Assembly: GCA_016191225.1 (NCBI GenBank)
Contig: JACPPC010000006.1
Coordinates: 62,001-126,000 of the forward strand
DNA from: Gemmatimonadota bacterium
GTDB taxonomy: Bacteria; Gemmatimonadota; Gemmatimonadetes; Gemmatimonadales; Gemmatimonadaceae
DNA: 64,000 nt
Direction: 5' to 3'
In this document: positions 26,331 through 29,893 of the stretch, in pieces
How the letters are laid out: each line of letters starts with the position of its first letter
Numbering within the stretch: position 1 is the first letter of the stretch
Program-made: the position numbers and the translations under genes
The notes under the pieces: model-generated
Seen by the model: the letters and a program-made list of their open reading frames with translations, nothing else
Database searches by the model: none
What the model was told of the DNA's origin: nothing

Positions 26331-26403
26331 TGACCCGGGAGGGGATCGAACCCTCGACCTACGGATTAAAAGTCCGCTGCTCTACCAACTGAGCTACCGG
26401 GTC
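26331..26403 (-). tRNA. tRNA-Lys (anticodon UUU)
   Basis: Minus strand GACCCGGTAGCTCAGTTGGTAGAGCAGCGGACTTTTAATCCGTAGGTCGAGGGTTCGATCCCCTCCCGGGTCA: full cloverleaf, anticodon loop CTTTTAA, no encoded CCA. Confidence 0.97.
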
Positions 26404-26655: not shown

Positions 26656-26748
26656 ATGAACACGACCAAGAAGCCCTTCGTCGCCCCGACGCTGAAGTCC
26701 GAAGCGTCGCTGACGGAGATCACGCTGTCCGCGGGCATACCTGGCTAA
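26656..26748 (+). CDS. Lasso-RiPP-type leader peptide / putative precursor (30 aa)
   Basis: MNTTKKPFVAPTLKSEASLTEITLSAGIPG, SD AGGAGA at 26645-26650; FxxPxL resembles the YxxPxL RRE-binding motif; immediately 5' of HPrK/PqqD/B2 genes. Confidence 0.7.
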   Translation: MNTTKKPFVAPTLKSEASLTEITLSAGIPG

Positions 26749-26792
26749 GGGCGGCGGATTGCGGCGCCAACGCGCCGCTTCATCGTGATGCG

Positions 26793-26827
26793 CGAACGCC
26801 AGCCCCTTCGGGCTGGCGTTCGTGCTT
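26793..26827 (+). terminator. Strong hairpin after the precursor gene
   Basis: CGAACGCCAGCCC-CTTC-GGGCTGGCGTTCG, 13-bp perfect stem with a cUUCGg loop, then TGCTTT. Confidence 0.8.
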
Positions 26828-26849
26828 TCCGGCAATCAGTTTGCCCGCC

Positions 26850-27776
26850 ATGCCCCATGAGGTGAGTGTCCGCACCGCGCATGCCGGTCTCGCCTCGCTG
26901 TTGCGGGAGTGGCTCGACGACGCCCGGCTCGCCCTGCCACGGCCCGTCACGCTCGTGGTCGAGGTCGGTCCCCTCCCCCTTTCCCCGTCCGACTCGCGGG
27001 ACGTCTTCCGGCAGGGGAATGTCGCGATCCGCAGCGGCCCCCCCATCCACACCGTGTCGCTGGATTGGGAACCGCGGCTCGGGCGCGCCGTCCTCGCGCC
27101 GCAGTCGACCGCGGCCAACGTGATCATCACCGAGCAGGGCCTCCAGAGGGAGAACGAAATGCTGCGCTCCTTCCTGCTCAACGTCTGCATCCTGCTCGTG
27201 CGCCGCGTCGGCCTGCACCATGTGCACGCCGCGGCGCTCCGGGACCCGCACGGCCGAGGCTGGCTCCTCGCCGGAACGAGCGGGTCCGGCAAGTCCACCA
27301 CCACCGCCCTCTTCGCTCGTCACGGCTGGGGCATCGGCACCGACGACATCGCCTTCCTCGCCGAGGGAGCGGCGCCCCGGGTCACCGATGTCGTCTGCTG
27401 GCGGGAGCGCCTCGCGCTGCACGACGACGCCGTGGTGGCCGTGGGGCCCGACGGTGGAACGCCGCTCACCGCCCGCCGAAAGATGGGCTGGTTCCCGGAG
27501 GAGCTCGGCGCCGAGTGGCTCTCACGTATCACGCCGCAGGTGATCCTCTTCCCCGGTGCCGAGCATGGCGATACGACGTCGCTCACGCCGATCAAGGGCC
27601 GCGAGGCCGTGACGCGGCTGATGCGCTGGAGTCCATGGGTTGCCCTCGAGGCCGACTTCGCCGACGAGCACCTGCAGCGCCTCTCCCAGCTCGCCTCGCA
27701 GGCGCGGGCCTTCGAGGTCACGCTCGGTCGCGACCTGTTCGATTCCCCCGATCGCCTGCTCGAACTCGTGTCATGA
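26850..27776 (+). CDS. HPr-kinase/phosphorylase-like protein of RiPP (lasso) loci
   Basis: HHVHAAALRDPHGRGWLLAGTSGSGKSTTTALFARHGWGIGTDDIAFL: P-loop and HprK-like context. Confidence 0.85.
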   Translation: MPHEVSVRTAHAGLASLLREWLDDARLALPRPVTLVVEVGPLPLSPSDSRDVFRQGNVAIRSGPPIHTVSLDWEPRLGRAVLAPQSTAANVIITEQGLQRENEMLRSFLLNVCILLVRRVGLHHVHAAALRDPHGRGWLLAGTSGSGKSTTTALFARHGWGIGTDDIAFLAEGAAPRVTDVVCWRERLALHDDAVVAVGPDGGTPLTARRKMGWFPEELGAEWLSRITPQVILFPGAEHGDTTSLTPIKGREAVTRLMRWSPWVALEADFADEHLQRLSQLASQARAFEVTLGRDLFDSPDRLLELVS

Positions 27777-28045
27777 CGACCTGGTACTCGCGCCATCCGG
27801 ACCTTCGCCTCACCGCCGTCGACGGCGAGGGAGTCGTGCTGCACCTTGGCTCACGCCGATACTTTTCCGTCAACGAGACGGGGGTGACGATCCTCGAGGC
27901 CCTTGCGTCGCCGCAAACGCTCATCGACCTCACCGCCCGCGTGGCGGCCGAATACGACGTCACCGCCGCGGCCGCCGAGCGGAGCGTACGGGAGTTCCTG
28001 GACCGTTGCGTCGATGCGCACCTCGTCCGGGCGGAGGAACGCTAA
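27773..28045 (+). CDS. PqqD-family RiPP recognition element (lasso B1-like)
   Basis: LRLTAVDGEGVVLHLGSRRYFSVNETGVTILEALASPQTLIDLTARVAAEYDVTAAAAERSVREFLDRCVDAHLV. ATGA overlap with the kinase gene. Confidence 0.9.
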   Translation: MTTWYSRHPDLRLTAVDGEGVVLHLGSRRYFSVNETGVTILEALASPQTLIDLTARVAAEYDVTAAAAERSVREFLDRCVDAHLVRAEER

Positions 28046-28089
28046 TCGCGCGCGCGTCTCGCGACGCGGCGCGGTTCGCCGGGACCCCT

Positions 28090-28545
28090 GTGGGCAGCAG
28101 TGGCGCGGGGGGTGCACGATTGTCGCCGGGATGGAAGGTACGGGCCGTGCTCGGTGCCCTCGTGCTCCCCCCCCTGCTTGGGCTGGTCTCGTTCGCGCGC
28201 ATCGAGCGCGCCATCCTCCTGGCCGCCCGCCTCCGCCCCGCGGCGCCCCTCGATGACGACGTTGCCGCCCGGCTCGTCGACGCCATCCTGCTGCGGCTCC
28301 CCGGGCCATGGGGCTGGACCTGCCTGCGCCGCGCAGCCGTGATCTACTTCCTGCTCCGGAGCGCCCGGCGCGATGCCGAGCTGTGCATCGGTGTGCGGCG
28401 TGCCCACGACGGCTCGCTGCGCGCCCACGCCTGGCTCCTTCGCGACGGCGCCCTGTATCTCGAGCCGGAGCGCTTCCGCGATGGCGCCGCCGGCTTCACG
28501 GTCATCGCGAGGTTCCCCTCCACCACCACGGCCCCCGCCCGCTAG
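28090..28545 (+). CDS. Lasso peptide biosynthesis B2 protein (transglutaminase-like protease)
   Basis: GPWGWTCLRRAAVIYFLLRSARRDAELCIGVRRAHDGSLRAHAWLLRDGALYLEP: Cys/His/Asp-containing B2 pattern. Start uncertain (GTG 28090 or TTG 28123). Confidence 0.85.
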   Translation: MGSSGAGGARLSPGWKVRAVLGALVLPPLLGLVSFARIERAILLAARLRPAAPLDDDVAARLVDAILLRLPGPWGWTCLRRAAVIYFLLRSARRDAELCIGVRRAHDGSLRAHAWLLRDGALYLEPERFRDGAAGFTVIARFPSTTTAPAR

Positions 28546-28548
28546 CGC

Positions 28549-29730
28549 ATGGACGCGCTGCTCCACGGCCGGCTGCTCTGCGACACCCTGCGCCTCGGCG
28601 ACCTGGACGACGGCGAGCGCGCGCGCCTCGCGGCCCTCTGGCGGGACGCCGATCAGGGCGCGCTCGTCGCCTTGGCACTGCACGAGGGCGCGGAGCTGTG
28701 GCTGCAGCGGCGGCTCAAGGCCGCCGAGATCGCGCTGGCCGACGATGCCCGGGCCACCCTTGGCGCCGCGGCGACCCGTGTGCGCGCGGGGGTGATGCGG
28801 GCCGACGCCGCACTTGCCCGTGTGGCCGGCATCTTCGCCAGCGCCGGCGTGGAGATGGTGCCGCTCAAGTCGGCGGCGCTGCGCCGCCTCACCGGGCGGC
28901 TGCCGCTGGCGGATGCCCGTGGCGTCTCGGACGTGGACCTGCTCGTACCCGAGCTCGAGGCCGACCGGGCAAGCGTCGTGCTGCGCGGGCACCAGTTCGT
29001 GCCCCTGCAGGCCGAAGAATCGCGGCCGCCGGGCCACCATCACCGGGTTCCGCTCGCCGACGCGTGGGGCGTTGCTGTCGAACTGCACGAGAGCACGCAC
29101 CAGGCCGTGCGGCCGGCCGAGGCATGGCGCCGCGCGACCCATCGACCACAGCTCGCCTGGATCGATGGCCATCAACTGCAGCTCGCCTCCGACACCGAGC
29201 TCCTCTGGCATGCCCTGGTCCATGCCAATCGCGATGCTGGCGAACAGGCCCGCATCGGCCTGCGCCTGCGCTACTGGCTCGACGGCGCCGTGCTCGTGGC
29301 CGGCAGCGTGATCGACTGGTCCCTGATTCGTTCCCGCCTCGACGGCGGCGAGCTCGACTCGCCGGAACTGGCCCGCGCCTGGCTCTGGTGGGCGGCGAGC
29401 CTGGCCGGGCGGTCGCTTGGGTTCTCCGAGATCGGAATGGGCGAACTCGGCGCCCTGGACCTGCCGCGCCTCCTCGCCTGGCGGCTGCACGTCCTCGCCA
29501 GGCACTCCGCCGAGTCCCGCTGGCGCGAGAAGCTGCTCGAGGAGGGGGCGCGCGCCGAAGGCGGCCTGCCCCGTCGCGCCCGGAATCCCGGCGCATCGTT
29601 CGTCGCCGGGGCGCGCAGTGCCGCGGCGGCCCTTGCCGCGCGGGCCGCGCATGCGGCTTGGAAGGCGGGGCTGCGCGGGAGCGACGGCTTCACGCAGGAG
29701 TTCCCCGCCCCCACCACGCCGCCAACATGA
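28549..29730 (+). CDS. Nucleotidyltransferase family protein (NTP_transf_5-like)
   Basis: IFASAGVEMVPLKSAALRRLTGRLPLADARGVSDVDLLVPELEADRASVVLRGHQF; VELHESTH; commonly neighbours lasso-type genes. Confidence 0.8.
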   Translation: MDALLHGRLLCDTLRLGDLDDGERARLAALWRDADQGALVALALHEGAELWLQRRLKAAEIALADDARATLGAAATRVRAGVMRADAALARVAGIFASAGVEMVPLKSAALRRLTGRLPLADARGVSDVDLLVPELEADRASVVLRGHQFVPLQAEESRPPGHHHRVPLADAWGVAVELHESTHQAVRPAEAWRRATHRPQLAWIDGHQLQLASDTELLWHALVHANRDAGEQARIGLRLRYWLDGAVLVAGSVIDWSLIRSRLDGGELDSPELARAWLWWAASLAGRSLGFSEIGMGELGALDLPRLLAWRLHVLARHSAESRWREKLLEEGARAEGGLPRRARNPGASFVAGARSAAAALAARAAHAAWKAGLRGSDGFTQEFPAPTTPPT

Positions 29731-29735
29731 GGCCG

Positions 29736-29798
29736 CCCGGCCGGCCCCCTGCCTCGCCCGGCCGGCCCCCTGCCTCGCCCGGCCGGCCCCCTGCCTCG
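29736..29798. repeat. 21-bp tandem repeat, 3 perfect copies
   Basis: CCCGGCCGGCCCCCTGCCTCG x3, right after the nucleotidyltransferase stop. Confidence 0.95.
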
Positions 29799-29893
29799 CC
29801 CGCCTGCGCCATCGCCTCGCCGTGCCGTGTGCGTTCGAAACGGCGTCGCATGTCGCGGCGACCCTCTGGCCTGGCGGGCGGCCGGGCCGGCGT

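Follow-up and report, generated by a model that had tools for sequence, protein, structure and literature searches.

Three kinds of described systems come closest to the locus analysed here. Linear polyphosphorylated peptides (LPP) are encoded by lpp clusters described as restricted to Bacillota, their kinase LppK phosphorylates Ser3 of the core and their leader peptidase acts poorly on precursor that has not been phosphorylated (PMC13381572; Nat Commun, May 2026). In the Bsf lasso peptide of Bradymonas sediminis the kinase BsfK phosphorylates core Ser3, and the RiPP recognition element (RRE) speeds phosphorylation and aids cutting by the B2 protease; the leaders of lasso peptides keep a common register at positions -17/-14/-12/-2 (PMC10368454). 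In the paeninodin/pseudomycoidin type, the C-terminal Ser is the phosphosite of paeninodin, and hexosylation on phospho-Ser has been reported for the related nucleotidyltransferase PsmN (PMC9266682).

The present locus is a set of five genes, all on the + strand, at positions 26656-29730 of the window (the whole stretch of 64,000 nucleotides that was analysed) in contig C1 of a 3.04-Mb Gemmatimonadota genome. The gene order is precursor, HprK-like kinase, PqqD/RRE, B2 protease and NTP_transf_5, and the original prediction had read these five genes, with their order and their overlaps or short gaps, correctly. The coordinates of the features are collected in Table 1. The precursor gene begins with ATG at 26656 behind a Shine-Dalgarno site (AGGAG; CTCAGGAG), encodes 30 aa and ends with the stop codon 26746-26748. 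The kinase and PqqD genes overlap by ATGA (PqqD ATG at 27773), with short gaps elsewhere. GTG at 28090 is taken as the start of B2, TTG at 28120 being possible instead, and both B2 and NTP_transf_5 are present as one copy each in the genome. The operon contains no exporter gene. The region around the hairpin between the precursor and kinase genes folds with z = -6.05, and strong hairpins also lie 3' of the last precursor in several relatives; this hairpin is probably an attenuator that would leave the precursor transcript in excess. Between the end of the NTP gene and the VKOR gene there is, at 29734-29821, a tandem GC-rich unit of 21 bp, in 4.2 copies with 92% matches.

Table 1. Features of the cyclase-free locus and of its upstream flank, in positions of the window.
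Feature	Position	Strand	Evidence or remarks
tRNA-Lys	26331-26403		Upstream of precursor gene
Precursor peptide gene	26656..26748	+	MNTTKKPFVAPTLKSEASLTEITL (leader) + SAGIPG (predicted 6-residue core)
Stem-loop, precursor-kinase gap	26790..26825	+	16-bp stem, 4-nt loop
HprK-like peptide kinase	26850..27776	+	TIGR04352 1.2e-8; conserved residues; PEPCK/HprK fold
PqqD-family RiPP recognition element (B1)	27773..28045	+	PF05402 4.8e-16; lasso RRE structure matches
Lasso B2-type cysteine leader peptidase	28090..28545	+	NF033537 1.1e-17, PF13471 2.1e-17
NTP_transf_5 nucleotidyltransferase, PsmN/LppN-like role	28549..29730	+	PF14907 1.3e-18; DxD, Lys

The family-model searches that assigned the enzymes (Table 1) gave a match above the cut-off of NF033537 for the B2 protein, and the Cys and His columns of this peptidase are invariant in the alignment. 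The structure matches of the RRE include those of two lasso systems, 9x90 (PbaB1, 3.1e-6) and 5v1u (TbiB1, 3.6e-5). The kinase is weak by sequence, its TIGR04352 match lying under the cut-off and Hpr_kinase_C giving no significant match, but the known peptide-kinase residues H126, K148, D165 and D166 are invariant across 70 kinases, and the structure model, which is modest (pLDDT 64), was assigned the HprK/PEPCK fold by Foldseek with a best E of 2.1e-6. In the nucleotidyltransferase the DxD motif and the Lys are invariant in 42 proteins, and its model (pLDDT 72) is nearest to the small-molecule nucleotidyltransferases ANT(2'') and LnuA (E about 2e-3 to 2e-2), with FKRP ranking lower among the matches. 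Sequence searches of the PDB with the nucleotidyltransferase and with B2 returned nothing convincing.

The leader of the precursor, KxFVxPxLxxEAxLxxLTL, places F, P, L and T at -17, -14, -12 and -2, the register of lasso leaders, and this register predicts a cut after T-2/L-1. Cleavage there would leave SAGIPG in the present locus and, among the relatives, cores such as STII, SGNGIQL, NPVTSQTV, QAVTSRPE, SGLVVSNTD, LPQTSRLIT, AGAISSIR and GLQVSQGPRG. The median length of the 21 cores compared is 9 residues, most having 4-12, and 18 of them fail even a loose lasso test, the three that pass being longer (19, 27 and 40 aa). A Ser is found within +1 to +6 in all 21 cores, some of which were found with a precursor profile that included core positions; it is Ser+1 in SAGIPG. 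Ser makes up 21% of the residues at +1 to +6 and 6% of the later ones (Fisher P = 4e-4, for cores that are not independent of each other). Only 2/21 family cores end in Ser/Thr, as against 12/15 kinase-bearing lasso-type precursors of the phylum and 0/6 of those without kinase, and the present core ends in Gly, not in the Ser that is the paeninodin-type phosphosite. The presumed phosphosite is thus placed near the core start, as is Ser3 of Bsf and LPP, whereas paeninodin has its own at the C-terminus. A single fixed position is not obvious, with Ser at +1/+2 in some cores and at +5/+6 in others.

Within the open-access PubMed Central literature LPP is the nearest known system. The two share a discrete RRE, an HprK-like kinase and an NTP transferase with no cyclase, together with an aromatic-xxP leader motif and a Ser near the core start. 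The LPP peptidase is of SpI-like serine type, whereas a lasso B2 (NF033537) is found here, and LPP precursors have 35-200 aa and the motif YxxPxVLxHQxIxFETxxS, in contrast to 30 aa (mostly 26-41 in the family) and FVxPxLxxEAxLxxLTL. The locus was not filed as LPP because it differs in these two defining characters, peptidase and precursor motif; in addition, LPP clusters have an MsbA-like exporter and belong to Bacillota. The Bsf system resembles the locus in its RRE, B2, HprK-like kinase, leader register -17/-14/-12, phosphorylated Ser3 close to the core start and an RRE that assists kinase and B2, and differs in having a cyclase gene, a lasso-length core with Asp8 and an Ile at -2 of the leader. 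With the paeninodin/pseudomycoidin type the families of kinase and nucleotidyltransferase are shared, as are a discrete RRE and B2; that type differs by its C-terminal Ser phosphosite, its cyclase and its lasso product. The original prediction of a lasso-type locus holds where the machinery is concerned, with its leader register, RRE and B2, and fails for the core, which has six residues, no Asp/Glu and neither the acidic residue at 7-9 nor the threading tail of lasso peptides. A core of six residues without Asp/Glu cannot, judged from its sequence, form a lasso. As an asparagine-synthetase-like macrolactam cyclase was found neither at the locus nor, as a lasso-type protein, in the ten genomes described below, both defining characters of lasso peptides are missing, and the locus is filed as a variant of the cyclase-free phosphopeptide kind. 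This agrees with the option of a non-lasso modified peptide that had also been proposed.

The operon is best read as an RRE-dependent one, either a sister or a descendant of lasso-peptide loci. With a probability of roughly 0.7, its product would be a short linear Ser-phosphorylated RiPP without a ring, cleaved by B2 and given a further tag by the nucleotidyltransferase. In such a pathway the RRE would bind the leader at F-xx-P-x-L and bring the precursor to the HprK-like kinase. The kinase would phosphorylate, once or possibly several times, a Ser close to the start of the core, which is Ser+1 in SAGIPG. Cleavage after T-2/L-1 by the B2 cysteine protease would follow and free the 6-residue core, and the nucleotidyltransferase may add a group on the phosphate, for which a nucleotide, a sugar or an alditol phosphate are all kept as candidates because of the modest model matches and of the hexosylation reported for PsmN. 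The order of binding, phosphorylation and cleavage is proposed by analogy with the behaviour of the Bsf RRE and of the LPP peptidase. Ser phosphorylation, the NTP_transf_5 product and the free core as end product are likewise presumed.

The alternative that survives best, although we consider it unlikely, is that the pathway leads to a larger or otherwise different modification and that the leader or the whole phosphopeptide, and not the freed core, is the active product, for example as a regulatory phosphopeptide or as a carrier on which a small molecule is built by the nucleotidyltransferase. Conservation is far stronger in the leader (22 aligned codons, 95% identical between congeners) than in the core, little product would remain from a core such as STII, and one enzyme set faces up to eight precursors. 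A conserved leader with a variable core is, however, the usual RiPP pattern, and every complete locus keeps a leader peptidase with an intact active site, which favours the freed core as the product.

Of 40 neighbourhoods read, 39 surround B2 genes in relatives and the remaining one an AsnB region of the same genome; 21 of the 40 are lasso-type loci with the cyclase in view. Kinase, RRE, B2 and NTP follow each other without a cyclase in eight further Gemmatimonadota genomes, nine in all: that of a congener (L048), that of a member of another family (L051) and six that a scan of 399 genomes of the phylum added (L096, L097, L098, L099, L101 and L102), where L097 starts just upstream of the kinase and L096 stops soon after the NTP gene, so that their further flanks lie beyond the contig ends. 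L103, a more distantly related locus, shares this gene order. In the first set of relatives, the seven kinases that come from cyclase-free loci group in a single clade (100/99), separate from 18 lasso-type kinases, of which 15 belong to loci with the cyclase in view, and in the RRE, B2 and NTP trees the present locus groups with L048 and L051. The comparison of flanking genes of the cyclase-free loci revealed no conserved exporter or regulator. Spread outside Gemmatimonadota was looked for in one scan of genome contigs with two short patterns and in a plasmid search. With the kinase profile the contig scan found just two loci, both from Gemmatimonadetes MAGs, and neither the plasmid collection nor PHROGs gave a kinase match.

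These relatives bear on decay, by which a paeninodin-type lasso cluster would have lost its cyclase and had its precursor truncated. The missing cyclase, the very short core and the paeninodin-type families of the remaining genes are what such decay would leave. Against it stand the cyclase-free order common to nine genomes of two families, the separate kinase clade, the retention of all catalytic residues, the tandem precursors of one relative (G040) and the dN/dS values between the locus and its congener, which are 0.08 for the precursor (mostly leader), 0.33 for the kinase, 0.28 for the RRE, 0.41 for B2 and 0.47 for NTP. Decay, one of the explanations first offered for the locus, is thus rejected as very improbable, and relatives that all carry an adjacent cyclase, which would have made this a simple deletion, were not seen. 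Another genome of the genus, G002, seemed to lack the locus because no B2 was found in it, but its contig ends inside an NTP gene adjoining VKOR, so at least the NTP gene occupies this site in the three genus genomes seen (3/3). Three further loci (L049, L050 and L052) have precursors MYERPRLERFGTFRELT...RS next to B2 and kinase and no cyclase in the fetched stretch, which belongs to short contigs in L049 and L050 and to one of 15 kb in L052. They were left out of the cyclase-free family, given their precursors of lasso length, their kinases that fall with the lasso type and the shortness of the L049 and L050 contigs. In the B2 tree the B2-like genes nearest to the present clade are those of L064 and L067, two loci where neither an RRE nor a kinase, NTP or cyclase gene was found within about 8 kb.

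A lasso cyclase encoded elsewhere could also act in trans on the precursors. The cyclase noted as missing is indeed missing, since no Asn_synthase domain was found on the contig of the window, and the matches of the genome sit on contigs C2, C3, C12 and C14. AsnB-family genes are present elsewhere in several genomes, this one included, and 3/21 cores combine sufficient length with an acidic residue at 7-9. However, the scan of ten kinase-bearing genomes (E <= 1e-8) gave no Asn_synthase match in four (G182, G144, G363 and G285), which are 80-93% complete; one absence could be an assembly gap, four together are unlikely to be. In the other six genomes, the present one among them, the Asn_synthase proteins fall outside 22 lasso cyclases in a tree whose separating branch has a support of only 49, the label needing one change (0/500 shuffles as low). 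Nearly all of them begin with MCG (the glutaminase Cys), a start that 21/22 lasso cyclases do not have. Among the NCBIfam models, those for asparagine synthase or exosortase-type amidotransferase scored best on the three AsnB proteins of the genome; on four lasso controls the lasso-cyclase model scored best, yet under its cut-off. Moreover, a lasso needs an acidic residue at 7-9 followed by a tail, and cores of 4-9 residues that lack these cannot form one. As far as draft genomes allow, the proposal of a cyclase in trans is dismissed, its probability being as low as that of decay, and the whole-genome search suggested at the outset ended with AsnB-family genes, none of lasso type.

A chance origin of the 30-aa reading frame, with the enzymes using another substrate, would suit a short peptide without family-model match, but this is least probable of all given its conserved leader, SD sites, place before the kinase, tandem copies and low dN/dS, and the finding of matching genomes by precursor and kinase profiles (7 and 7 genomes, 5 shared of 396 after leaving out three training genomes, P = 5.5e-9).

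In G040 four tandem precursors lie upstream of the kinase, another four, preceded by good SD sites, are spread over three further places, and the single enzyme set of this genome probably serves eight peptides. The latter four, orphan precursors distant from the enzyme operon, are those of L132, L133 and L134, and in L133 and L134 they are directly upstream of secreted-looking amidohydrolase (PF01979) genes.

More speculatively, and with appreciable doubt, the loci may define a distinct RiPP family in which lasso leader/RRE/B2 machinery would yield linear oligopeptides of 4-12 aa in which a nucleotide, a sugar or an alditol is joined through phosphate to a core Ser, several precursor variants being supplied in trans to a single enzyme set; such conjugates would be of microcin-C size and possibly serve as signals or cofactors. 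The results suggest that cyclase-free lasso offshoots occur outside Bacillota with an ordinary B2 protease, and that RRE/B2/kinase modules are able to mature peptides of as few as four residues. Genome mining anchored on the cyclase would miss such loci, and their short cores would make the NTP_transf_5 reaction, nucleotidylation or glycosylation of a phosphopeptide, unusually accessible with synthetic substrates.

Cyclase-free loci with an HprK-like kinase and a radical SAM gene (PF04055) nearby were also seen (L070, L073, L076, L105, L135 and, as a contig-end fragment, probably L056), most of them also with RRE and B2, and they are possibly a radical-SAM branch of cyclase-free RiPPs. The precursors of L105 and L135 have a similar leader and longer cores ending in ..GSIFP and ..GSTGFFP, with no Ser in the first six core residues, which counts against the reading proposed for the present locus. 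Finally, a locus with a lasso-type cyclase (L040:9876-10154, G004) has two near-identical precursors of 28 aa (MKRTPWITPTLVSKPVSETLFVQD...), whose core would be about 8 residues long, odd for a lasso peptide.
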